Virus record (IMG/VR): IMGVR_UViG_3300024496_000093
Coordinates: 1 to 27,485 of that record
Length of the DNA stretch: 27,485 nt
Reading direction: 5' to 3' (one strand)
Source: a virus
Below the pieces are notes generated by a model. The model did not search any database, was not told the origin of the DNA, and was given only the letters and a program-made list of their open reading frames with translations. Below, piece after piece: positions 579 to 16,697 of the stretch. Made by a program: the position numbers and the translations under genes. Numbering within the stretch: the stretch's first letter is position 1; each line of letters begins with the position of its first letter.

Positions 579-814
579 TGGAAGTCCCACTCAGGATTGC
601 GACGGCTGGACAGACTCTTGATCTGTTCGCAGACATTGACCAACTCGTCTCCGTTGCGGATCAGTCCGTGATCCATGACGAACTCGGATGCCTCCTCGTA
701 AGCCGTGTTCCTCTCGCGCTTGAGGTGCTTGATCTCCAAGCGCAGGGTGGCGATCTCGAGCTCGAGTCTGCCGATCTTGTGAACGAGGTGTGTGTAGCTT
801 TGCTTCTCAGACAT
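575..814 (-). CDS. Coiled-coil hypothetical protein, 79 aa
   Basis: This is a 79-residue protein starting MSEKQSYTHLVHKIGRLELE. Residues about 10-45 have a heptad-like pattern of Leu/Ile with charged residues, predicting a coiled coil. It overlaps the end of the helicase gene by 8 nt and passes an ATGA overlap to the zinc-ribbon gene, so it is co-translated within the replication operon. I do not recognise a family. A small helicase or primase accessory role fits its position but is not shown by the sequence. Confidence 0.65.
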   Translation of the reverse strand: MSEKQSYTHLVHKIGRLELEIATLRLEIKHLKRERNTAYEEASEFVMDHGLIRNGDELVNVCEQIKSLSSRRNPEWDFQ

Positions 815-1748
815 AGTGCCTCCGTGAATCGCGAACGCTCTCCTTGAACTGCAAGCTCATGTCGTCGAACCACAGAGCGACCAGTCCTTCCCATTCCCCA
901 TGCCGTTGCTTGTCCACGTACAGGCCATGCGTCGGCTTGTCCTCGTCGTCCCCGTCCTTCTTCGGGAACTTGTAGACCGTGATGAAGTTGTCGCACTGGT
1001 CTACGATTGCGCCCGTGCCCTTGGCGTCCTGCTTTCCGGGGCGACGGCTCTCGTCATCACGCTTGCGCGAGTGATGCACGAGGTGGATGTGGATGTTCAG
1101 ATCCTTGGCGGCGGCGCACAGTTGACCGATGAACCGCTTCTGTCCGTTGTAGTCGTCCTCGTTGGCGACCACCTTCATCAGGCTGTCCACCACGAACTGC
1201 GTCACGCCCAGTTGCTCGGCGCAGTAGTAGATGACCCCGAGGATTCGCTCGGGTGAGGTCTCGCCCTGCTGGTCGTAAAGGAAGACCTTGCCCTCGGCGA
1301 AGTTGAGGAATCTGTTGACGTACTCCTCGGTCGGGTTCTTTGTGCCGATGGCTTGGGTTGCCATCCGACGCAGGGTCTTGCGCGGCTTCATTTCGAACGA
1401 CGCGATGCAGACCTTCTGGTCTTGGGTCAACAGATGGAGCATCACGAACCCGGTACACATCGACTTCATGTGCCCGTTGAAACCTGTCCAGACCGTGACC
1501 TCGCCGGGGCGGATCAGGAAGTTCTCGCGGGTCTTAATCCACGGGAGGTCGAGCCCGTGCTGGCGGGGGTCGCCAAAGAACTCGTCGATCAACTCCTCGC
1601 CGAAAGACTTGGGTGTCTTGATGCGGCCAATGTCCTCCTCCCGTGCCTGGAGGTAGGCGTCGAAGTCCACGCTCTGTTCCTTCAGGCGGCTGGCTCGAGC
1701 GTTGTCGAGCTCGCCAGCGATGCGTTCGATGTAGGTGAGACTGCTCAT
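807..1748 (-). CDS. DnaB/Twinkle-type replicative helicase (RecA-like ATPase)
   Basis: This 313-residue protein is a RecA-fold ATPase of the phage replicative-helicase type. Walker A is TGFNGHMKS at residues 88-96. Walker B is FVVDSLMK at about 185-192, ending in Asp after a hydrophobic run. The HLVHHSRK segment near 222-229 fits the H4/sensor position, and KQRHGEWEG near 280-288 fits the arginine-finger region of DnaB-like enzymes. The N-terminal 70 residues are too short for a DnaG-type primase, so this looks like a helicase-only protein. It would unwind DNA at the phage fork together with the adjacent zinc-finger primase fragment and the DUF1376 initiator-like protein. The start overlaps the previous stop (ATGA, 1745-1748). 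The Walker A loop has Met where Gly is common. Assignment to the RecA/DnaB superfamily is firm; the exact subfamily is less so. Confidence 0.85.
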   Translation of the reverse strand: MSSLTYIERIAGELDNARASRLKEQSVDFDAYLQAREEDIGRIKTPKSFGEELIDEFFGDPRQHGLDLPWIKTRENFLIRPGEVTVWTGFNGHMKSMCTGFVMLHLLTQDQKVCIASFEMKPRKTLRRMATQAIGTKNPTEEYVNRFLNFAEGKVFLYDQQGETSPERILGVIYYCAEQLGVTQFVVDSLMKVVANEDDYNGQKRFIGQLCAAAKDLNIHIHLVHHSRKRDDESRRPGKQDAKGTGAIVDQCDNFITVYKFPKKDGDDEDKPTHGLYVDKQRHGEWEGLVALWFDDMSLQFKESVRDSRRHYV

Positions 1749-2173
1749 CGTGCGTACTCCATAGCCTCGTTAATGCGTGAGGTCGCGAGACGCAGACGCT
1801 GGTGATCTTCGGGTGAAAGCACACGCCCGTTGGCGATGGTGCTGGCGCAGACGGCGACGATGGTCGCCTCGTGCTGGATGACCTTGAGCAAGTCGGTCGC
1901 CATGAAGCGAGCCTTGCGAGCTCGAGCTCCGTTCAGGTCGTAGCCCTCCTGCTTCGGCGGGAACAGGTCGGACAGATCCATGCCGACGGCTCCGGCGATC
2001 TCGGCCACAGAACAGCCCGCGAAGCAGTGCATGAGGATCTTCCCGTCCTCGGTCTCGCGGATGGTCATGCTGGGGTTGCGGTCGCCGTGGGCAGGACAGC
2101 ACGCGACGTAGTTGCCGTTGCGCCCCTTGACCTTGGAGAGACGCGACAACAGGGTTTCGAAGTTCGGGTTCAT
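1745..2173 (-). CDS. CHC2-type zinc-finger DNA primase fragment
   Basis: This 142-residue protein carries the zinc-binding module of DnaG-like primases. Cys25/Cys26 and His29 lie in CCPAHGDRNPSM, followed by Cys50 and Cys54 in HCFAGCSVAEI. This is the CHC2 pattern that recognises the priming template. No TOPRIM or archaeo-eukaryotic primase catalytic core follows; the rest is a short helical tail. Stand-alone proteins of this size are common in betaproteobacterial phages, next to a separate helicase. Here the helicase follows with a 4-nt overlap, and the upstream initiator-like gene also ends in an ATGA overlap. It may work with the host primase, with the helicase, or with a catalytic subunit outside this window. 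Confidence 0.8.
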   Translation of the reverse strand: MNPNFETLLSRLSKVKGRNGNYVACCPAHGDRNPSMTIRETEDGKILMHCFAGCSVAEIAGAVGMDLSDLFPPKQEGYDLNGARARKARFMATDLLKVIQHEATIVAVCASTIANGRVLSPEDHQRLRLATSRINEAMEYAR

Positions 2174-2862
2174 CAGATGGCTCCTTTCAACTCAGCGTCC
2201 CAATCGAAGTCTTGGGTGGGCTTGTCCTTCACCCATTCCGCCTTGAAGCCACGCCAGCTACGCTCGACGCACATGGTGAGTGCCTCTTCGAGCGAGAGCC
2301 CTGCCTTCTTAGCCTCGCGCTTGATGCCCTCGACAGCGATCTCCGTGATCGGAGCGCGAAGGGCACGACGCAACTTGAGGAAGTCAGCCACGACCTTCTC
2401 GCTGACCTCGGGGAACATAACCGCCGCTTGCGGCGTATTCTTTTCTTGGTTCTTGGTTATCGGTTTACGGTTAGCTTTCGAGTTGGTTTCTTCTGGGTAC
2501 CCCGCTGGGTTCCCGCTGGGTACCGACTCGGTATCCGACTGGGTTTTCTTAGGGCGTCCACCACGCGCACCATTCGACCGAGCAATCTCGGCTCGCTGGT
2601 GGTAGGCGGCGATCTCGAGGTCGGCACGGGCGTTGTGCCAGCCGTCCTGCTCGAGTGTGAAGAATTCCTTGAGAACCGCCTCGACCTCGGCGGTGCTTTC
2701 CCGCATGGCGATCAGGCGAGCGCACTGTGCAGGGTCTGCGGGGAGCGGTTGCTCTTCGGTGTAGTAGGTGTCGAGGAGTCTGCGATAGGCCAGGTCTTCG
2801 GTTTGGCTCAGATGCCTGGTCTTCGTGAGGTAGTCCCGGATGTGGAACTGGTAGTGAAACAT
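2173..2862 (-). CDS. DUF1376 replication initiator / helicase-loader-like protein
   Basis: This 229-residue protein has an N-terminal DUF1376-type domain (residues 1-95, starting MFHYQFHIRDYLTKTRHLSQ, with the YRRLLDTYYTEEQPL signature). A low-complexity linker follows at about 100-150. The C-terminal segment, around 155-215, contains ERSWRGFKAEWV, a motif I associate with phage replication/helicase-loader proteins. I chose the ATG at 2862 because AAAGGA lies 7 nt upstream; an upstream in-frame extension to 3015 would run through the promoter and operator region. It is the first gene of the leftward operon. Its linker DNA contains iteron-like repeats and an AT-rich stretch, so the gene probably carries the origin to which its product binds, as in the lambda O gene. 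The initiator role is inference from this arrangement. Confidence 0.75.
   Translation of the reverse strand: MFHYQFHIRDYLTKTRHLSQTEDLAYRRLLDTYYTEEQPLPADPAQCARLIAMRESTAEVEAVLKEFFTLEQDGWHNARADLEIAAYHQRAEIARSNGARGGRPKKTQSDTESVPSGNPAGYPEETNSKANRKPITKNQEKNTPQAAVMFPEVSEKVVADFLKLRRALRAPITEIAVEGIKREAKKAGLSLEEALTMCVERSWRGFKAEWVKDKPTQDFDWDAELKGAI
2436..2492 (-). other. AT-rich stretch beside iterons (candidate unwinding element)
   Basis: Within the DUF1376 gene the composition drops sharply, with many TTCTTGG, GGTTAT and GGTTTA words in a genome of about 60% GC. It directly abuts the iteron-like repeats at 2493-2548. A GC-rich 5-6 bp hairpin (CGCCGC/GCGGCG, 2422-2435) lies on its other side. This layout matches origins in which bound iterons melt a neighbouring AT-rich segment. 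The function is inferred from position only. Confidence 0.4.
2493..2548 (+). repeat. Five iteron-like direct repeats (candidate phage origin)
   Basis: Five copies of CTGGGTACC-like units start at 2493, 2505, 2516, 2527 and 2539: CTGGGTACC, CTGGGTTCC, CTGGGTACC, CTCGGTATC and CTGGGTTTT. The spacing of 12, 11, 11 and 12 bp is about one helical turn. The spacing is not a multiple of three, so successive copies fall in different codon phases of the DUF1376 gene. The similarity is therefore conserved as DNA, not as a protein repeat. Together with the AT-rich neighbour and the initiator-like host gene, this resembles the lambda ori inside gene O. Confidence 0.6.
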
Positions 2863-2907: not shown

Positions 2908-2979
2908 GTGGAAGGCCGGGGCGAAAGGAACGAAACTCCCCGGCTTTTCGACCGCAGGAGCGACCCGCGATCTATCCAC

Positions 2980-3038
2980 GGACACAAGTGTCCTTGTTTC
3001 ACGTGGAGCAGTCAACAGGGAAGTTGTAGGAAAACAAC
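2980..3038. promoter_or_regulatory. Left operator region of the lysogeny switch
   Basis: Two inverted repeats lie between the divergent repressor and replication genes. One is GGACACAAGTGTCC (2980-2993), which overlaps ACAAG-N4-CTTGT (2984-2997). The other is GTTGT-N6-ACAAC (3023-3038). They flank and overlap the candidate leftward promoter at 2987-3015. The words TTGTAGGAA and ACAAGTGT seen here both recur on the other side of the repressor gene, at 3863-3871 (reverse complement) and 3808-3815. That sharing is what I would expect of one repressor acting on two promoters. Confidence 0.5.
2987..3015 (-). promoter_or_regulatory. Candidate leftward early promoter
   Basis: On the minus strand a TTGACT -35 box (3010-3015) is followed after 17 nt by GACACT (2987-2992), a weak -10. 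It would drive the DUF1376-primase-helicase operon with a leader of about 115 nt. An inverted repeat covers the -10 box and another lies just upstream of the -35 box, as expected for a repressor-controlled promoter. The poor -10 match keeps confidence low. Confidence 0.35.
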
Positions 3039-3082: not shown

Positions 3083-3112
3083 TTGACAGGAGTAACAAGC
3101 GGCCTTTAGTAT
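3083..3112 (+). promoter_or_regulatory. Candidate repressor promoter
   Basis: A perfect TTGACA -35 box (3083-3088) is followed after 18 nt by TAGTAT (3107-3112). Transcription would start near 3119, upstream of the ATG at 3153. An alternative ATG at 3111 lies inside the -10 box, which argues against it as the start codon. Confidence 0.5.
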
Positions 3113-3152
3113 GCGTTTGTGTTTTCGACGAACGGCTATTGACGAGGCCACC

Positions 3153-3794
3153 ATGAATCAACAAGGAAACCGGCTTGGCAAGCGCATCAAGGATCTTCTC
3201 CGTGAGCGCGGCATGACCCAGGCAGAACTGGCCCGACTGGTCGGAACCAAGCAACAGACGATCAGCTACATCGTGGCCGAGGCAACACCCGCCCAGTCGT
3301 CGCGCTATACCCACAAGATCGCCGAGGTGTTGGGCGTCAATCCAAACTGGCTACAGTCCGGCGAAGGGGATCGCCACACGGCGATTGTTCCCATTTCCGT
3401 TCATGGACAACAGATCAGAGTCCATCAGGTGCCTGTACTGACGTACGATTCCGTGTCAATATTCCTTGCTGGAAGAGAAATAGATCCAAAAGGAATGTTG
3501 ATGACCGACCGTGCAGATGGAGACCGCACGTTCGCGCTGGAAATCGAGGGCGACAGCATGGCCCCAGTCTTCAAGGCTGGAGATAGAGTGGTCATCAACA
3601 CCACTGTGCGTCCCGAGCCGGGTGATTACGTAGCGGCACAAGCTGATGGCATTGTCCTATTCAGACGATACCGAGCTCGCCACCCAGGCTTTGAGCTCGT
3701 GCCGGAAAACGAGGATTGGGAGGTCGTTTCCTCCCAAGACGGCGTAGACATCCTCGGCGTGATGGTCGAGCACCGTAAGTACCGGAATCGGTAG
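3153..3794 (+). CDS. CI-like phage repressor, HTH plus S24 (LexA-type) domain
   Basis: This 213-residue protein has an N-terminal Xre-type helix-turn-helix (about residues 8-62, with MTQAELARLVGTKQQTISYI) and a C-terminal LexA/CI peptidase-fold domain. The catalytic serine motif is EIEGDSMAP with Ser135. An Ala-Gly pair at 106-107, in the hinge region, could be the cleavage site. Where CI and LexA proteins have the catalytic lysine (FKKL or VKRL) this protein has FRRY, Arg171, so self-cleavage may be impaired. I chose the ATG at 3153 because GAGG lies 5 nt upstream and the earlier ATG at 3111 is inside the promoter. It sits between two operator regions and should repress both early operons to maintain lysogeny. 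Repressor identity is strong; inducibility by DNA damage is uncertain. Confidence 0.88.
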   Translation: MNQQGNRLGKRIKDLLRERGMTQAELARLVGTKQQTISYIVAEATPAQSSRYTHKIAEVLGVNPNWLQSGEGDRHTAIVPISVHGQQIRVHQVPVLTYDSVSIFLAGREIDPKGMLMTDRADGDRTFALEIEGDSMAPVFKAGDRVVINTTVRPEPGDYVAAQADGIVLFRRYRARHPGFELVPENEDWEVVSSQDGVDILGVMVEHRKYRNR

Positions 3795-3807: not shown

Positions 3808-3885
3808 ACAAGTGTTGCGAAAACAAGACGCTTTGTACGCTACGACAAAAGAATCCTTGTAATTCCTACAAACTGCCTTGATAAT
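3808..3885 (+). promoter_or_regulatory. Right operator and rightward early promoter
   Basis: A perfect inverted repeat TTGTA-N5-TACAA (3857-3871) overlaps a promoter with -35 TTGTAA (3857-3862), a 17-nt spacer and -10 GATAAT (3880-3885). Upstream lie TTGT-N8-ACAA (3833-3848) and the word ACAAGTGT (3808-3815), which is shared with the left operator. Binding of the repressor to the 15-bp repeat would block RNA polymerase directly. The promoter would drive the recombination/integration operon starting at 3930. Confidence 0.6.
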
Positions 3886-3896
3886 CGGTCTCCGGA

Positions 3897-5968: not shown

Positions 5969-6411
5969 CGAATTACGAGCGCACTGCGGCATGGTTGATG
6001 GCGTGCGGCAAGGAGCCGACCACCGCCAACCTGTCCGTGCAAATCGGTTGCCACATCGAGGAGTTCATTGAGCTCCTCGGCACGCTCGACTTCGCCAGCC
6101 CCAACGACCAGAAGATCGTCTCGGCGGTGATGGCGGAACTGAACTACGTGTCGAAGAACCTCAAGACCCGTACCTCGCTTGCTCGCATCCGCATCGACCA
6201 GCGCGAGCAAGCTCTCGACGCCCTGTGCGACGGCGAAGTGACCGGCAACGGCATCGCCTTCCTTGCGGCCTTCGACAAGATCAGCGCCGACGAAGCGGTG
6301 CTGAACGCCAACGACGCCAAGCTCGTGGACGGCAAGCCCGTCATCCTCGAGGGCGGCAAGATCGGTAAGCCCGAGGGCTGGACGCCCCCGGATCTGTCTG
6401 CATTTGTTTAA
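5965..6411 (+). CDS. MazG-like / PRA-PH-type nucleotide pyrophosphohydrolase
   Basis: This 148-residue protein looks like the all-alpha NTP pyrophosphatase superfamily (MazG, PRA-PH). The expected acidic metal-binding cluster is present: Glu32, Glu33 and Glu36 in CHIEEFIELLG, and Asp86/Asp89 in LDALCDGE. NGIAFLAAFD and then NDAKLVDGKPVILEGGKIGKPEGW match the C-terminal signature of phage PRA-PH-like proteins. It would hydrolyse nucleoside triphosphates to monophosphates, cleaning or shifting the nucleotide pool during phage replication; the substrate is unknown. The GTG start overlaps the stop of the preceding gene. Confidence 0.65.
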   Translation: MTNYERTAAWLMACGKEPTTANLSVQIGCHIEEFIELLGTLDFASPNDQKIVSAVMAELNYVSKNLKTRTSLARIRIDQREQALDALCDGEVTGNGIAFLAAFDKISADEAVLNANDAKLVDGKPVILEGGKIGKPEGWTPPDLSAFV

Positions 6412-8849: not shown

Positions 8850-9198
8850 CCTTGGGCTGGGGAACGAACTGCTTCCCCTTGGCGTTGCCCTCCGCCTTCG
8901 CCCGGTTGGTCGCCGCCTTCTCCGCCGGAGTCAGTTTCTCCCACGCCTTCTCGGGTAGGTAACGCTTCTTGCCCTCAGACGGCGAGCCGTCCGAGGTCTT
9001 CCACTTCTGGTCTGTCCACTTGGACAAGGACTTCTGGGCCCCGGTCTTGGCACCCGTGTAGCCCCCGCCCTTCTTCTCGTACTCGGACGCCAGCAGTTGC
9101 GCCTTGCGGGCAGACCACTCGCCGGGGTCTCCCCCCTTGCTCCCGGCCATGATCTGTTGCTTGATGCGTTCCCGCAGTCCAGGCTTGGTGTATCCCAT
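8809..9198 (-). CDS. DUF5872-like phage protein, 129 aa
   Basis: This 129-residue basic protein starts MGYTKPGLRERIKQQIMAGS and contains GEWSARKAQLLASEYEKKGGGYTG, QKSLSKWTDQKW and RYLPEKAWEKLTPAEKAA. I recognise the pattern as DUF5872, a small Lys-rich protein found in many phages and some large DNA viruses. Its function is unknown to me; its charge suggests nucleic-acid contact or a virion role. The start is well fixed: GAAGGAG lies just upstream, and the ATG overlaps the stop of the giant gene (TGATG), so it is probably translated by coupling. A longer open frame upstream to 10095 is a shadow of the giant gene. Confidence 0.75.
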   Translation of the reverse strand: MGYTKPGLRERIKQQIMAGSKGGDPGEWSARKAQLLASEYEKKGGGYTGAKTGAQKSLSKWTDQKWKTSDGSPSEGKKRYLPEKAWEKLTPAEKAATNRAKAEGNAKGKQFVPQPKAIAEKAAKVRKAS

Positions 9199-12100
9199 CA
9201 CTTCTCCTTCTTGCGGGCGACCCGCAGTTCTTCGATCCGCTGGGCGACGTCGATCTTCAGTTGGGTCATCCGGTCGATGTGCATCCGCTTCTCTTCGGCG
9301 CTCATGTTCTTGTCGGTCTGGATGAACTTGATGTTGCGGTCGATCATGTTCAGTCTGTCGAGCCCGCTCTGGTAGAGCTTGGCCAGGGCGATCTTGTCTC
9401 GGTTGGCCTCCAACAGATCCGCCGCCTTGTCGATCTCCCGAGCCTGGATGTAGGACTTCAGGTCGGACTGCACCATCGCCACATCCTTGGCGTTCTCGTA
9501 GAACGAGGACAGGAAGCGCGACTGGTTGGAGGGGAGCTCTCGCACGAAGTTGCCGACGATGAAGTAGTCGTCGATCCGCTTGGCAGGGGTCTCGCCCTCC
9601 TTGAACGGACGCACCGCCTCGGCAGACGCCGCTTGCACCATCGTGCCCACCCACCCGAGGTAGCCGCGCAGGAGGTGGTCGTACTGCACCGGGGAAATCT
9701 TGAAGTTGTTGGCGTTGAACGACTCGCCGGTCGCCTTGGACGCGAAGTCCATGAATGCGCCGTTGATGTTGGCGAGCGCAATCGCGGCGGGCGATGTGGA
9801 CGGGTTGATCCGCATTTCGGGCGACAGCTTCTGTTGAGCCATCGACTCGATGGGACGGTCGGTGAACGAGTTCTTGTTGGCGGCGAGCTCGTAGATCGGC
9901 TTGACGATCTGGGGGATCGGGTTCATCGCCAGGTTGTCGCCCAGGATGGACAACAGACGCTTGCCGAACACCTTGCCCTCGACGCTCGAGTCCACCATCT
10001 GCTCGGTCAGGCGCTCGATGATCGAGGAGATCGCGCCCAGTTCGAACGGCTTGCGGATGCGGACGGCGGTCTCCGTGCCCGGAATCTTGTACCACCAGTA
10101 GGTGTCACGATCCCAGTCCTCACGCTTGCGCCAGTCCTCGTCGTCCATCTGGCCGAGGTACAGCGCCAGCGAGGCGGCAGTGACGCCCAACAGAACCAGA
10201 CCGAAGCGGCGGGGATCTTCCGAACCGCCACGACCCAGCTTGTAAAGACCCTGCATCCGGGCGTTGAAGTACGGCACCACCTGAGACAGCCACTGGATCG
10301 CGGCGAACGAGCCATGCAGGGAGTAGTCCTGCAAGTCCTTCGCCAGGAACGTGGCTTCCATGTGGGACAGACCTTTCTCGCGCATCTGGGTGTAGAGCGA
10401 CAGGCGGCTGGAGTTTTCCAGCGCCTCGGACGCACGCTCGTACTTGTCATAGACCTTGAGCAAGGCGTCCTTCAGACCATGCTTGTCGGCGACGAAGACG
10501 TTGGTGGTCTGCGCCTCGCGAGCCAGACGGCGGATGTTGGCCGACTGCTCCCCGTCGTTGGCGGCACCGGCCACGAACAGACCGCCACCAGCCAGAGCCT
10601 CGGCACGCTTGTCCTTGTAGAGGCGGATGCCCTCGAAGACGTTGGTCAGGGGGTTGCGCTTGATGTCGGAAACGGCGAGCGACTGGATTGCGTCGGCCAC
10701 CAGCACGTTGATCTTGAACGTCGGGTTCAGCGCCACGCCCTGCGTGAAGATGGTCTTGAGCTTCGCGGCGGCTCGGGTGAACAGGCCGCTGTGTTGCATG
10801 GTCGAGACCATCGTCAGGGTGTCGAGCAAGAGCGGGTCGCTCACCGTGTAGTGAACCTCCTGCCCCTTCTCCATGACCTTGACCGCACCCTTCGGCACGG
10901 GCTGTCCGGGCTTGATGCGCTCGGCGATCTGCATCTTCTCGGCCTCGGCCAGGATCTCGGTGGCCGCGCCGTTCTTCATGGACGCCGACAGGATGTGCGA
11001 CCAGTTCAGGAGCACGTTGTCCAGCAGATCGTTGAGCGGACGGCTCGAGCCCTTGAGCTTGTTGCTGAACTGTTGGCCGGTCATCTTGGCGGAGATCTGT
11101 GCCGCCGCCATGCCGTCGCGGACGTTGTCCTCCATGTTCCGGTAGAACGGGACGTACCAGATGTCCTGGGTGAATCTGTTGTAGGCGTCCTGGCTGATGA
11201 GCCCCTTCTGCAAGGCGATGTCGAGCACCGACTTGTTGATGGCGTTCATGTCCTGTTGCACCTTGAGGTAGGTGGCAACACGGGACTTGCCATTTTCCAT
11301 CGTGCCGAGGTTCATCCGCTTGAGCTCTCTGATCTCCTCGTCGGTGAAGAACCGCTCACGATCCTGCGCCTTGAGCTTCTCGGCGCGGTTCGCCGCCATC
11401 CACAGGAGGAAGCGGTCAACCTCCTTGCCCAGCGGTTGCATGACCTCGATCAGACCCTTGGTGTTCTTCTTGAGGTTGAGCGCACCGCCGTCGTCGAAGA
11501 CCTGGCCGAAGTGCAACAGAACAGACAGAGCGCCGTCCTGTTTGCCGTTGGAGAGGCGAGCCTTCATGTAGAGCTCGTCGCCCAGCTTCTTGATCGACTG
11601 GTACTTGTCGAACAATCCCTGCACGAGGTAGCCACGGTAGATCGGGCGCAGTGCATCGAGTCGATCCTTGATACCGGGCGGCGAGTAGTGGCCCTTGGCA
11701 AGAGCAATGGCCTTGGCCTTAGGCGACAGATCGTCGTACTGGGACTCGAAGTCCTTGCGGCGGAACAGGGGGAGCCCGTCCTCGGCAACCTTTTGCTGGA
11801 GAGACTCGGGGATCACGAAGCCCAGTTGCTTGCCTGTGCCCTCGATCTCCATCACCTCGACCTTGCCGTCCTTGCCAATGACCTCCTTAGCAACAGACGG
11901 AACCTTGCTGTTGTAGTAAGGGCCAAGGTTGGCGGTGAACAGTTGCAGGTTCTCGCCCTCGATGACGCCAGAAGTCCCGAGCTCATTCTCGACAAGGGTG
12001 TTCTTCTCGTCGGTGATGTACTCGGCGGCTTTGTCGCCAACGTACTCCGCCAAGTCGCCACTCTTGATGTCATCGACCGTGCGGACGTTGCGGCCATCGC

Positions 12101-15100
12101 GCATGACGGTGATGGTGTACAGGCCAGTCTTCTTGTCCAGCGTGTAGGCAAGCTGGTCGCCAGCGAATCCATACCGCTCGTTCTGTTGCTCGCCGGTCGT
12201 CCAGGCAATGCGGTCAATCCCGCGCTCTACGGCGTAGGCAATCGCACGCTTCAGCAACAGAGCCGTCCATGCTTCCGTCTTCTTGACGAACGGAGCATCC
12301 GGCACATTGTCGTAGGCGTCTGTGTCCTTGGACTTCAGCTTCTGGTGCTCACGCTTGAGGTCTTCCATCTTCTCAAGCATGGCGGGACGCTCAGACTCGG
12401 CGACGTCCATGTACTGACTCAGCAAGGAGTTGTACTCCTGCATGAGCTTTTCGGCCTTCTCACGGTTGGCCTGAACGACTTTGCCTTTGCGGAGGTCTTG
12501 GCCTCGCTGGCTCTGGAGCTCCTCGATGAACAGAACGGAATTGCCGTCGGCATCACTCCGCTCGTTGACTCGCAACCAGCCAATGGCTCGACCTTGCGTG
12601 ACGTCCCCGAAGTGGATGTCGTCGTGTTGCTTGTACGAGGGCGTAGAGGGATCGAATAGGACGATCTCCGAATAGTTCTTGCCACCGGGCAGGACAAGGC
12701 TTCCGTCGCCGTGCTTGGGCTTGTTGAGCTTGGCAACGCGCCCGCGCTGGAAACGCTCCATGAGTCGGCGGTGCTGGTGCAGGTAGTTCTGCCAGCCGAT
12801 GTTCTCGGCAATCCAGGCGCGCAACTCGGCGATGTCCATTTCATCGACGAACGGAGCCTCTTCTCCAAGTTCTTGGTAGACGCCATCCCAATCCATTTGC
12901 TCGACGCGCTCACGAACGAACTCGCGCACGTCGTCCTCGGATGGCTCGAGCACCATGTCCGAGGGAAGCAGATCCTTCACGTCTTGCTTGTAGCTGGTCA
13001 ACAGAACGTCGTTGATGTGAACCCTGTTGCCAGCGATGAACGTCAGCAATTCCTCCTTGCTGACCTTTTCCTTGCCCTTGAGGTCGAGCCATTCGTTGAC
13101 GCCAGTCCATGCAATCTCGTCAGGCTTGACGTTCGGAAGACTCTTGATGATCGACTTCCAGTCTGTGGCTGGCGCGGAGTTCTGCTTTGCGCCACGCACC
13201 GCACGCTCCATCGCGGAGTAGAACGTGGAAGCACCGGCCTTCATGCGTGGAGCGTCGAGCGCCGCCTCGCCGATGCCAGCCTCGAGGTCGCCCTCGATGA
13301 CGTAGCGGCGGGCATTGGCAACAATCTGTCGAACGTCGCTGTCGGTGACGAAGCTGATGCCGATCTTGCGGAGCATCTTGCGAACCAGGGCGAAGATGCG
13401 TTGCAGGGCGTTGCGGTTTTCCGCAGTAACGCCCTCTTCCGCCATGTCTGCCAGCACCTCTTCGACGGCGTGCTCTTTGGACAGACCCTCCTTGACCATC
13501 ATGTCATCGGCACGAGCGCGAACGCTCTTGTTGCCGTTGTAGATGTCGAACATCGTCTGCTCGTAGGCTTTGCCCAACAGACGGCGCAGACCGAAGTGAC
13601 CTGTTACCTCGTGAGCGACGGTAAGGATCACCTCCTTGGCATTGGGAAGGTTGTCGGCAACGAGGTAGACCTTGCCGCCGTTGTAGACACCTGGGACTTT
13701 GCCGCTGATGTCCTGCTTGCGGATCTCTTCCTGAATGGACTCGGGCAGACCGCTCTCTGACTGGACGATTACAACGTCCGGAATCTTTGCCCAGTTCTCG
13801 ACCAGCTTGTCGAAGATCTTGGTGACGGCGTCAACCGTCATTCCCTTGCCAGCGGGAACGACACGGAACACCTGATCCTGCTCGGCCTTCTTGCGGTTCT
13901 CTGCCGCCTTGGCGTTGGCGCGTTCCTTACGGGCGTTGTTCAGCACCCGCTGGACGATCTGGTCGTGGAGCTCGGCAGTGGCGTAGGGCTTGTCACCGTT
14001 TTCGGGTGCGGTGGCCTCGATCCACTCGTTCTGCACGTCCTTCGGTAGCTTGAAGAACGGGATGTGGGCGACCTTGCCGTCGTCGTTGTCTTCCCATGTG
14101 AAGACAGCGTCTTCCTCGATCTGCGCTTCAGAGCGACCGTCGGTGCGCTTGGGCTCCGGCTTCTCGGCCTTGGGCTTCTCCGGCTTGGGCTCCTTCTTGG
14201 CCTTCTGCTTGGCCTTGAGCTTCTGCTCTACGGTTTGCTTCGGAGCTTCTTCGCCTTTGCCTTCGTCAGGGCGATTGCCACGGCTTGCTTCACCGCCAGC
14301 TTCTTGCTCTTTGGCTTGCTGTTTCCGATTGTCCCGTCCTTCTTCCAGTCGTCCACCAGTTCCTTGACGTTCTGGCTGATTACCTTGCGGCTGTTCCCCG
14401 GCTTGAGTGGCATCGGCTTCTCCTTCTGCGCGTTGCGCTTTGGCATCCTCGACAGTCGTCACCTTGGTGGTGGTGTCGGGGACAGGCGTGACGTTGGCGA
14501 CGTTCTCGGGAGAGACAGCCTCTTCCTTGATGATTTCGCCGGTCTTGTTGTCGGTCTGTTGGACGACGACCTCGTCGCCCTTGGCCTCGGTGGTGACGGT
14601 CGGCTCGGCGTACTCGAGCACCTCACCCATCGCTTGCTTGAGGCCAACCTTCTTGGCGCGTGTACGGGTCTTGTTGACCAGCTTCTTGTCCTTGACCACG
14701 ACGACGGCGGTCTTGCCGTCCTCGCCCTTCACCTCGAAGGTGGTCAGGCCATCGGTCTTGACCTTGGAAAGATCCTCAGTGCCCAGCACTGCGGCCTTCT
14801 TGCGACCGTCGCGCACGGCGTCGATCTGCGCTTGCAACTGCGGTGCGGGCTCGGACACGAACCCAGCGGAGTTCTGCTTCTCGCGGCCTTCGATGAAGAA
14901 GAACGTGCCGCCACCCGCCGACTTGGCTCGCTTGCCACGACGGATCTGGAACTCCATCCCCTCAACAGAACTTGCGTAACCGCCCTCGCGCTTACCAGTT
15001 TCCTTGTTGACGGGGCCAAATAAAAAGGTCTCGGCAGACTTCTCGGAGACAAACGAGTTGCCCACCTTGCGACCATCGACCGTGAAGGCGGGCAGAACTT

Positions 15101-16697
15101 CGAAGCCCTCTTGGCGAGCGACGATGTCTTCGGGTGCGATGGCTGTCGTCCGGGCCTGGTTGCCCGTCTGGGACTCCGGCAGGACAACAGGTTCGAATCT
15201 GTCGCCGACTGGCTCAAGCCCCTGGTCTGTGACCCGAACAGATTCACGCTTGATGACGCCCTGTCCCTCAGCGTTGGTGTCTGTGCCGACGCCCACCCCT
15301 GTGCTGGCGGTGTCGCCGAATGCGGCTTGCACATCTTCGCCGCGCTCTTTGGTGCGCTGGGCACGCTCTTCATCCGAGATCGGCTGGACTGCCGCGATCT
15401 CCTCCGCCTTGCGACGAGCTCCAAGGAACGACGCAACAGCACCGTCAAATGCAGGATCGTCGGGCCCGGTGATGCCAGCCTTGTTCATGGCCTCGGCCAC
15501 GCGCTCATCCGCCACGAGGGCTTGGTAGATCTCCTCGCGTTCGGTGGGCTTCTCCATCTTCTTCTCGATGGTCTTGTCGATGTCCTGGCCCTTGGCACCG
15601 AACTTCTCGACCATGATGTCCACCGGGGCGGAGAACGCTTCGCCCAAGAACTCGAGGATCATTTCGCCACGGCTGGCTTCCTCGCCCACTGCGGTTGCGG
15701 CTTGGTACGCGCCAGCGGCACCGCCAGCGCCTTGGATCACAGCCTGAGTGCCGACATTCGCCAGCTTGGATGCAAACGGGTTGAGGCCAAGGAACGCGCC
15801 AGCGATAGCGTTGGCCGGGACTTCGGCGGCGGTCTTGGTGACGGCGTACTCGGAGGCCGCTTCTGTGTCTCCTTTGTACTTGCTCAGACCCTCGACGTAG
15901 TTGGAGCCCAGCGACTGGAACACCACCGCACCAGTGTTGATGCCAGCGCCGGTAGCGCCAGCACCCACCGCTGTCTGCACTCCCGCGCTTGCGCCGAGAC
16001 GTGTGGCCGCACCAACTGCCGCCGCCTTCACGGGTGCAGTAGCCACCGCGCCAATACCGCCACCAACCGTCATGCCCGGAACCTGTTCGGCCAGGAAGTT
16101 GGCGATCATGGTCGGGTTACGAACGGCGTAGCCCAACATATCCGTGACCGCAGACATCGTGTCAGGGGCGGCATCGCCCTTCCTCACGAGCTCGGCGATT
16201 CGGGGATCGGACTCCAGGCGACGGTACTCGTCGGCGCTCTTGGCCAGAATCTGTCCGGTGTCTTCGTCGCTTCCGGTGACAGCCTTCTCGAGCTTGTTGG
16301 CGAGGAAGTCCCAAGTGACCGCCAGTCCCTTGAAGCCCTTCTTCAAACCTCCGCTGATGTCGAGACCCGGCTCCTTGGGTGCGGGCGCTTCGGCTTCTGG
16401 CTTGGGTTCGTTTCCGTACAGGTCGAACTGGAACTTGCCAGCACGAGGCTCGGCTTTGGGTGCGGGCTGTGCGCGGGGCTGATCCATCCCGCCGTACAGG
16501 TCGAACGAGAACTTGCCGCCCTTGGGAGCGGCAGACGGTTGAACAGACTCAGCCGATGCAACCTGTTCCCCTCGGGACAGGGGAACGACGTCTTGTCGAT
16601 ACGCTTCGCCACTGGACTTGAACAGACCAGCGGGATCGTCTTCGATGTCATTATCCAGTGGGTCTGGGACTCGGCCCAGTCGAAGCGTGGGTTGCAT
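9198..16697 (-). CDS. Giant polyvalent / internal virion protein (2499 aa)
   Basis: This 2499-residue protein has several modules. The N-terminus repeats KFxFDLYG twice (about 62-69 and 88-95). Residues 190-340 form a Gly/Ala-rich hydrophobic stretch. Residues 690-900 are a charged low-complexity linker. A zincin-like HEVTGH motif (His1029, Glu1030, His1034) is followed by an acidic helix, as in the metallopeptidase domain of phage polyvalent proteins. A segment with FIEELQSQRGQ lies near 1390. The C-terminal 850 residues (from about 1650) match my recollection of the LPD38-type polyvalent domain. The gene closes a block of 354-, 432- and 2499-residue products, the size order of T7 gp14-gp15-gp16, so it is probably packaged and ejected into the host. 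Effector activities are inferred. An AGGA precedes the ATG. Its linker overlaps a nested gene at 14228-14413. Confidence 0.8.
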   Translation of the reverse strand: MQPTLRLGRVPDPLDNDIEDDPAGLFKSSGEAYRQDVVPLSRGEQVASAESVQPSAAPKGGKFSFDLYGGMDQPRAQPAPKAEPRAGKFQFDLYGNEPKPEAEAPAPKEPGLDISGGLKKGFKGLAVTWDFLANKLEKAVTGSDEDTGQILAKSADEYRRLESDPRIAELVRKGDAAPDTMSAVTDMLGYAVRNPTMIANFLAEQVPGMTVGGGIGAVATAPVKAAAVGAATRLGASAGVQTAVGAGATGAGINTGAVVFQSLGSNYVEGLSKYKGDTEAASEYAVTKTAAEVPANAIAGAFLGLNPFASKLANVGTQAVIQGAGGAAGAYQAATAVGEEASRGEMILEFLGEAFSAPVDIMVEKFGAKGQDIDKTIEKKMEKPTEREEIYQALVADERVAEAMNKAGITGPDDPAFDGAVASFLGARRKAEEIAAVQPISDEERAQRTKERGEDVQAAFGDTASTGVGVGTDTNAEGQGVIKRESVRVTDQGLEPVGDRFEPVVLPESQTGNQARTTAIAPEDIVARQEGFEVLPAFTVDGRKVGNSFVSEKSAETFLFGPVNKETGKREGGYASSVEGMEFQIRRGKRAKSAGGGTFFFIEGREKQNSAGFVSEPAPQLQAQIDAVRDGRKKAAVLGTEDLSKVKTDGLTTFEVKGEDGKTAVVVVKDKKLVNKTRTRAKKVGLKQAMGEVLEYAEPTVTTEAKGDEVVVQQTDNKTGEIIKEEAVSPENVANVTPVPDTTTKVTTVEDAKAQRAEGEADATQAGEQPQGNQPERQGTGGRLEEGRDNRKQQAKEQEAGGEASRGNRPDEGKGEEAPKQTVEQKLKAKQKAKKEPKPEKPKAEKPEPKRTDGRSEAQIEEDAVFTWEDNDDGKVAHIPFFKLPKDVQNEWIEATAPENGDKPYATAELHDQIVQRVLNNARKERANAKAAENRKKAEQDQVFRVVPAGKGMTVDAVTKIFDKLVENWAKIPDVVIVQSESGLPESIQEEIRKQDISGKVPGVYNGGKVYLVADNLPNAKEVILTVAHEVTGHFGLRRLLGKAYEQTMFDIYNGNKSVRARADDMMVKEGLSKEHAVEEVLADMAEEGVTAENRNALQRIFALVRKMLRKIGISFVTDSDVRQIVANARRYVIEGDLEAGIGEAALDAPRMKAGASTFYSAMERAVRGAKQNSAPATDWKSIIKSLPNVKPDEIAWTGVNEWLDLKGKEKVSKEELLTFIAGNRVHINDVLLTSYKQDVKDLLPSDMVLEPSEDDVREFVRERVEQMDWDGVYQELGEEAPFVDEMDIAELRAWIAENIGWQNYLHQHRRLMERFQRGRVAKLNKPKHGDGSLVLPGGKNYSEIVLFDPSTPSYKQHDDIHFGDVTQGRAIGWLRVNERSDADGNSVLFIEELQSQRGQDLRKGKVVQANREKAEKLMQEYNSLLSQYMDVAESERPAMLEKMEDLKREHQKLKSKDTDAYDNVPDAPFVKKTEAWTALLLKRAIAYAVERGIDRIAWTTGEQQNERYGFAGDQLAYTLDKKTGLYTITVMRDGRNVRTVDDIKSGDLAEYVGDKAAEYITDEKNTLVENELGTSGVIEGENLQLFTANLGPYYNSKVPSVAKEVIGKDGKVEVMEIEGTGKQLGFVIPESLQQKVAEDGLPLFRRKDFESQYDDLSPKAKAIALAKGHYSPPGIKDRLDALRPIYRGYLVQGLFDKYQSIKKLGDELYMKARLSNGKQDGALSVLLHFGQVFDDGGALNLKKNTKGLIEVMQPLGKEVDRFLLWMAANRAEKLKAQDRERFFTDEEIRELKRMNLGTMENGKSRVATYLKVQQDMNAINKSVLDIALQKGLISQDAYNRFTQDIWYVPFYRNMEDNVRDGMAAAQISAKMTGQQFSNKLKGSSRPLNDLLDNVLLNWSHILSASMKNGAATEILAEAEKMQIAERIKPGQPVPKGAVKVMEKGQEVHYTVSDPLLLDTLTMVSTMQHSGLFTRAAAKLKTIFTQGVALNPTFKINVLVADAIQSLAVSDIKRNPLTNVFEGIRLYKDKRAEALAGGGLFVAGAANDGEQSANIRRLAREAQTTNVFVADKHGLKDALLKVYDKYERASEALENSSRLSLYTQMREKGLSHMEATFLAKDLQDYSLHGSFAAIQWLSQVVPYFNARMQGLYKLGRGGSEDPRRFGLVLLGVTAASLALYLGQMDDEDWRKREDWDRDTYWWYKIPGTETAVRIRKPFELGAISSIIERLTEQMVDSSVEGKVFGKRLLSILGDNLAMNPIPQIVKPIYELAANKNSFTDRPIESMAQQKLSPEMRINPSTSPAAIALANINGAFMDFASKATGESFNANNFKISPVQYDHLLRGYLGWVGTMVQAASAEAVRPFKEGETPAKRIDDYFIVGNFVRELPSNQSRFLSSFYENAKDVAMVQSDLKSYIQAREIDKAADLLEANRDKIALAKLYQSGLDRLNMIDRNIKFIQTDKNMSAEEKRMHIDRMTQLKIDVAQRIEELRVARKKEK
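14228..14413 (-). CDS. Nested DUF6496-like small protein, out of frame in giant gene
   Basis: This 61-residue protein starts MPLKPGNSRKVISQNVKELV and ends with a basic segment containing KQAVAIALTKAKAKK. Both ends match my recollection of DUF6496, a short Lys-rich phage protein (MPLKxGxSxKxISxN...KQAVAIALxKA). The gene lies wholly inside the giant gene in another frame on the same strand. A full AAGGAG ribosome binding site (14420-14425) sits 6 nt before the ATG. The giant protein is low-complexity there (about residues 762-823), as expected if its linker is constrained by the nested gene. An in-frame ATG at 14446 lacks such a site. Function unknown. Confidence 0.7.
   Translation of the reverse strand: MPLKPGNSRKVISQNVKELVDDWKKDGTIGNSKPKSKKLAVKQAVAIALTKAKAKKLRSKP

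Follow-up and report, generated by a model that had tools for sequence, protein, structure and literature searches.

A probable lambda-like replication origin within the DUF1376 gene of a temperate phage

A bipartite array of short DNA repeats inside a DUF1376 gene is very probably the theta-type replication origin of the phage that carries it, embedded in the gene of its own initiator in a manner resembling lambda (probability of about 0.87). The DUF1376 protein itself is likely to be the replication initiator. The gene lies in a 27,485-base virus record from IMG/VR, which was analysed as a whole and is referred to here as the window. Sequence comparisons across the family establish a bipartite DNA array under strong synonymous constraint, an almost exclusive link of this array to DUF1376, co-variation of a protein tail with the iterons and a context of replication genes. 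From these features we infer that the iterons are bound, that the adjacent DNA is melted, that replication proteins are recruited, that the site is used as an origin and that these tasks are divided between the parts of the protein.

Results

The DUF1376 gene and its neighbourhood

The gene that we propose to encode the initiator and to contain the origin occupies positions 2173..2862 on the minus strand and encodes 229 amino acids. Its product belongs to Pfam family PF07120 (DUF1376 / YdaU; E=1.3e-24), with 86.8 bits against a curated cut-off of 30.1. In PHROGs the product matches a family labelled 'primosomal protein' (1.5e-37), and phrog_678, 'replication initiation O-like' (4.2e-18), is matched by residues 103-214. 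The term lambda-O-like, applied to the origin in the original prediction, fits the C-terminal half of the protein as judged by PHROGs, whereas a Pfam scan of the window protein returned PF07120 alone, with no lambda O family and no RepA/TrfA/RepE-type domain. Matches in the viral library are to members of DUF1376, to Lin1244/Lin1753-like proteins and to entries that bear the label replication protein.

In an AlphaFold2 model computed from an input alignment of 51 sequences, residues 1-99 (codons 2566..2862, minus strand) form an N-terminal winged-helix-like domain with the secondary-structure order H-H-H-H-E-E-H and pLDDT values of 92-98 from residue 11. A basic tail, HQRAEIARSNGARGGRPKK (residues 88-106; 2545..2601, minus strand), adjoins iteron 1 and is proposed to be the element of iteron specificity, based on the association of tail and iteron classes described below. 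The linker, residues about 108-143, is disordered in the model, and residues 145-213 (2224..2430, minus strand) form a helical C-terminal domain, with pLDDT values of 91-95 over most of its length, which may recruit helicase and primase. PDB sequence and fold searches with the protein and its domain gave no significant match, which counts against the origin reading; the weak, non-significant fold matches of the DUF1376 domain include winged-helix regulators.

The next gene in the operon encodes a CHC2 zinc-ribbon primase-like protein (1745..2173, minus strand; PF01807, 5.4e-7; phrog_6088 DNA primase, 2e-16) and the third a DnaB/RecA-like helicase (807..1748, minus strand; PF03796 DnaB_C, 1.1e-7; phrog_239 primase/helicase, 1.3e-49). 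Divergent from these is an S24/HTH repressor gene (3111..3794, plus strand, with a start at 3153 also possible; PF00717, 2e-16; PF01381, 3.6e-9; phrog_4 transcriptional repressor), beyond which lie genes for a Sak annealing protein, a YqaJ exonuclease, an SSB and an integrase. Such a gene set marks the early region of a temperate phage, in which the DUF1376 gene comes first after the intergenic stretch that it shares with the divergent repressor. Promoter calling on the minus strand gave no sigma-70-like site between the repressor and the DUF1376 gene. Short inverted repeats and ACAAG/CTTGT motifs flank the repressor gene (2977-3010, 3813-3892) and are possible operators.

The gene following DUF1376 encodes DnaB in two relatives (L065, L105), a replicative helicase according to annotation in three (L012, L013, L018), a DnaC/IstB-type loader in three (L035, L125, L017), a P-like loader in two (L103, L015) and a primase-like protein in the window and two further loci (L009, L045); several neighbouring genes in relatives gave no informative match. 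An inversion of GC skew, which had been expected near 2.5 kb, was not seen. This counts against an origin, and the profile is not diagnostic in a 27-kb fragment whose coding strand switches at ~3 kb, since both features confound it.

Iterons and AT-rich heptamers within the gene

The five repeats at 11-12 bp spacing that had been noticed at the outset are present at 2490-2545 as direct repeats on the strand of the DUF1376 gene (minus), with the consensus WACCCAGYSGG. They comprise iteron 1, AACCCAGTCGG (2535..2545), iteron 2, ATACCGAGTCGG (2523..2534), iteron 3, TACCCAGCGGG (2512..2522), iteron 4, AACCCAGCGGG (2501..2511), and iteron 5, GTACCCAGAAG (2490..2500), whose 3' half has diverged; all are given on the minus strand. 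The array is placed between the codons of the N-domain and those of the C-domain, the tail codons stop exactly at the start of iteron 1, and the arrays are situated ~320 bp into the gene, 3' of whatever promoter it may have.

The ACC[C/G]A core of the window iterons occurs in all three codon phases, in agreement with the original claim that the repeats run across phases; the mixture of 11 and 12 bp spacings, however, leaves copies 1-2 and copies 4-5 in a common phase. In the window linker we found 8 cross-frame 7-mer pairs where synonymous-codon permutation predicts 0.58 (p = 0.0033, the lower limit for 300 permutations). Within the window, only positions 2493 and 14178 show at least four 9-mers chained at 10-13 bp spacing, and among 200 first-order (dinucleotide) random sequences 2 contain such a chain. 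The chain at 14178-14240 falls in a K/E/P-rich stretch of a 2499-aa ORF (9198-16697, minus strand) and is probably an in-frame peptide repeat. Single matches to ACCCAGYSGG with 2 mismatches number 122 across the window against 108 expected; single sites are thus uninformative and only the array is informative.

The AT-rich segment reported to adjoin the repeats is real, with 39% GC at 2439-2489 in a window of 60% GC. By GC content it ranks lowest among the 51-bp stretches of the DUF1376 gene and is one of 8 such places in 27.5 kb. A feature missed by the original prediction is that this segment is a tandem array of five 7-bp units (NAACCRA-like), TAACCGT AAACCGA TAACCAA GAACCAA GAAAAGA, at 2439..2473 on the minus strand (37% GC), which shows a period-7 signal and which we propose as the unwinding element. 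The window heptamers are degenerate relative to the family consensus, and this counts against the origin reading.

Retention of the repeats in close relatives is borne out: they are identical in L002-L004, and only 2 of the 37 nucleotide differences between the window and L005 fall within the 125-bp linker. Three further loci (L006-L008) share the N-domain, tail and repeats of the window despite an unrelated C-terminal half. The layout of two arrays recurs throughout the family with other iteron sequences.

Selection at the DNA level across the DUF1376 family

At least 128 DUF1376 genes were gathered from viral contigs, bacterial genomes and named phages, a collection biased to Gram-negative phages, and were thinned to 63 at <60% identity for the repeat tests. 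In the linkers of these 63 diverged genes, 405 cross-frame repeats were observed compared to 58 expected by synonymous-codon permutation. The excess was significant at 0.05 in 37/63 linkers, as against 4/63 N-domains and 3/63 C parts. When all periods from 5 to 14 were tested, only 7 (44/63 linkers), 14 (37/63) and 11 (29/63) stood out, with 1-11/63 for the others.

In four lineages (marine, freshwater, Polynucleobacter and Pseudomonas), synonymous identity reaches ~0.8-1.0 over iterons and heptamers and ~0.5-0.8 outside them, while amino-acid conservation over both arrays in the same lineages is often below that of the domain. As judged from these alignments, such synonymous constraint is what characterises a DNA element that overlaps a gene. 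The peptide NQEPITN, found in DUF1376 proteins, is simply the 7-bp unit translated through three frames.

Further evidence comes from a reciprocal search, in which viral contigs were scanned with DNA alone for three heptamers in succession (AACCAAK AACCAAK AACCAA). Among the matches listed, 76 of 79 ORFs carry DUF1376. A further match, L184, is apparently a contig-end fragment of a DUF1376 gene and has GCAATGC-type iterons. At 78 loci, again among the matches listed, period 11 scores 18.1/30 matches in the 75 bp upstream of the heptamers, where other periods score 8.6-12.7, and 10.6/30 in the 75 bp downstream. The presence of period 11 upstream and not downstream indicates that the order of iterons followed by heptamers is general. 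A perfect DnaA box, TTATNCACA, was found in 1/128 DUF1376 genes when the search was made within the genes; this near absence, unlike the situation at many theta origins, counts against the origin reading.

Several variants of the arrays were noted. Units of 6 bp (GATACA, CCAACA, AATACC, AACCAG) replace those of 7 bp in the AT-rich part of L017, L020, L104, L108 and L019. Polynucleobacter loci and their relatives (L114-L124) have ACACCAG-like heptamers together with GCAATGC/GCATTGC iterons in both orientations. In Vibrio phage 1.183.O (L015) an annotated 'CRISPR spacer' at 6361-6390 lies inside the DUF1376 linker repeats and may be a mis-called iteron array. Long runs of the heptamer GAACCAA also occur outside DUF1376 in two apparently spurious ORFs (L146, L175) and may be unrelated minisatellites.

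Co-variation of the protein tail and the iterons

Iteron types differ by lineage and include ACC[C/G]A, GCAATGC, ATCAGAT, TTCAA, ACGAACG and C-runs, classes that were defined after inspection of the data. ACC[C/G]A iterons are found in 53/54 genes that encode a GGRP/GGRK tail (at about residues 100-106), compared to 2/31 genes lacking this tail. The association of tail class with iteron class (Fisher 3e-19) is phylogenetically clustered. On the tree the two underwent 13 and 14 changes, and only 4 independent pairs are available on well-supported branches (sign test p = 0.125); averaged over random pairings, the iteron class changed in the same direction in 3.8 of 4, and no pairing gave the opposite direction.

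Individual comparisons illustrate this exchange. L022 matches the window at 74% in the N-domain and 73% in the C-domain, yet has a different tail and different iterons. Overall k-mer similarity between linkers tracks the N-domain weakly (Spearman 0.32), since tail and iterons are exchanged between closely related loci. These sequence patterns fit a scenario in which tail and iterons travel together as one element; the tail may contact the iterons.

Discussion

Explanations other than an origin have to be weighed against these data. The array might be bound by the DUF1376 protein, or by some other protein of the phage, and act as an autoregulatory operator or in a different DNA transaction. Winged-helix proteins are often regulators, and the binding postulated here, by a protein whose gene heads an operon opposite a repressor, would be compatible with such a role. 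We nevertheless consider an operator unlikely: the arrays lie well inside the gene, past any promoter that could drive it, AT-rich heptamers 3' of phased iterons across the sampled loci correspond to the layout of an origin, the adjacent genes encode a helicase, loader or primase, and a functional origin is known from Rac, a related element.

Two further explanations dispense with a function of the DNA altogether. If the repeats reflected a low-complexity peptide linker under selection at the protein level, the disorder of the linker in the model and the recurrence of peptide motifs such as NQEPITN would be accounted for. This is already contradicted by repeats that cross codon phases and exceed synonymous permutations, by synonymous conservation that peaks where amino acids often vary, and by the origin of NQEPITN itself in a DNA unit read in three frames, so that we regard it as highly improbable. 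Even less credible is a minisatellite that arose by neutral replication slippage in an unconstrained linker. The units are indeed short and in tandem, and similar heptamer runs exist in the two unrelated ORFs mentioned above; the same two periods, however, appear in independent lineages despite different iteron sequences, iterons precede heptamers in 78 loci among the matches listed, and the arrays are better conserved than their surroundings, which already speaks against neutrality.

For the preferred reading, a phage origin within the initiator gene, a mechanism can be drawn by analogy with lambda and the iteron plasmids (PMC7466680, PMC5043065). The DUF1376 protein, made from the early operon, would bind the five helically phased direct iterons through its winged-helix domain and the basic tail directly after it, so that initiator copies would sit on one face of the helix along the array. 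The resulting wrapped or bent complex would melt the AT-rich heptamer array and one of the separated strands would be held by the initiator, while the C-terminal domain would recruit the products of the two following genes, primase and helicase.

The exchange of tails and iterons raises a broader idea, which we put forward tentatively and with somewhat less than even confidence. DUF1376 genes may be self-contained, swappable replicon cassettes, in which the tail and its cognate iterons are encoded within ~100 bp, such that a single recombination would switch both protein specificity and origin. The constant heptamers would be read, probably as single strands, by the winged-helix core, which is likewise constant, so that many phages would share an origin code of two parts. 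Since the heptamers are constant while the iterons, the C-domain and the type of helicase or loader vary, the constant N-domain is the most economical candidate for their reader; this assignment is speculative.

That an origin may lie inside an initiator gene is known from lambda. As far as the literature searched shows, the placement of DUF1376 in this class, the combination of direct 11-bp iterons with 7-bp unwinding units and the joint change of iterons and tail are new; that literature, which included few subscription papers, yielded no description of a function for DUF1376 or YdaU. Our analysis thus proposes a testable function for a widespread phage family that is listed as 'unknown function' in Pfam and merely as 'primosomal protein' in PHROGs. 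The sequence rule of 11-bp iterons followed by 7-bp units within a DUF1376 linker may locate origins in many phages and prophages, possibly including E. coli Rac, and the coupling of tail and iterons suggests a route by which origin specificity could evolve without breaking the initiator.

In Rac of E. coli K-12, ydaU is a DUF1376 gene and adjoins ydaV; the ydaV-type protein is DnaC-like in the Rac-like phage L017. Rac carries the active origin oriJ (PMC3945230), and plasmids based on oriJ have been studied (cited in PMC11014345). The ydaU linker contains six TGTTCAA-like copies at about 33, 33, 12, 11 and 13 bp; it differs from the window in its iteron sequence and in having no AACCAA heptamers. 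The literature searched gave no position of oriJ with respect to ydaU; we predict that oriJ lies in ydaU. Among plasmid records, NZ_CP124656.1 (L130), circular and 52.7 kb long, from P. aeruginosa, has no typed replicon; it carries phage genes together with ydaU and primase/helicase and may be a phage-plasmid or an excised prophage. An Acinetobacter plasmid considered as having DUF1376 as its sole replicon also has RepM and is uninformative.

The closest precedent for the arrangement in the window was taken from the outset to be lambda, where the origin is located within the initiator gene O, iterons are followed by an AT-rich tract in mid-gene and a helicase-loading gene is adjacent, as is likewise the case for the origins of Stx phages (PMC7466680, PMC5043065). 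In lambda, O dimers bind iterons that are inverted repeats of 19 bp and lie beside a 40-bp AT tract (PMC5043065). The lambda-like plan stands insofar as origin-like arrays are found inside the coding sequence of the probable initiator, with AT-rich DNA next to the iterons and helicase and primase genes adjoining the gene (in several relatives DnaB or a DnaC/IstB or P-like loader). It does not extend to the repeats themselves, which are direct and of 11-12 bp and not inverted and of 19 bp, to the AT segment, which is built of 7-bp tandem units, or to the protein, which has a DUF1376 N-domain in place of that of O.

A second comparison is offered by plasmids. In iteron plasmids the origin is placed outside the rep gene, the initiators are of the RepA/TrfA type and DnaA boxes are usually present; the AT-rich element of P1 consists of heptamers. 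The proposed DUF1376 origin differs in being coding, in almost always having no DnaA box within the gene and, in the window, in an initiator for which a Pfam scan gave no RepA/TrfA/RepE-type domain. In RK2, F and P1, direct iterons phased with the helix are found beside AT-rich short repeats, which are 13-mers in RK2 (PMC5043065). Direct iterons in phase with the helix are equally a feature of the window, and period 11 is enriched across the DUF1376 family. Based on their 11-12 bp direct repeats, the window iterons are thus closer at the DNA level to those of plasmids than to those of lambda.
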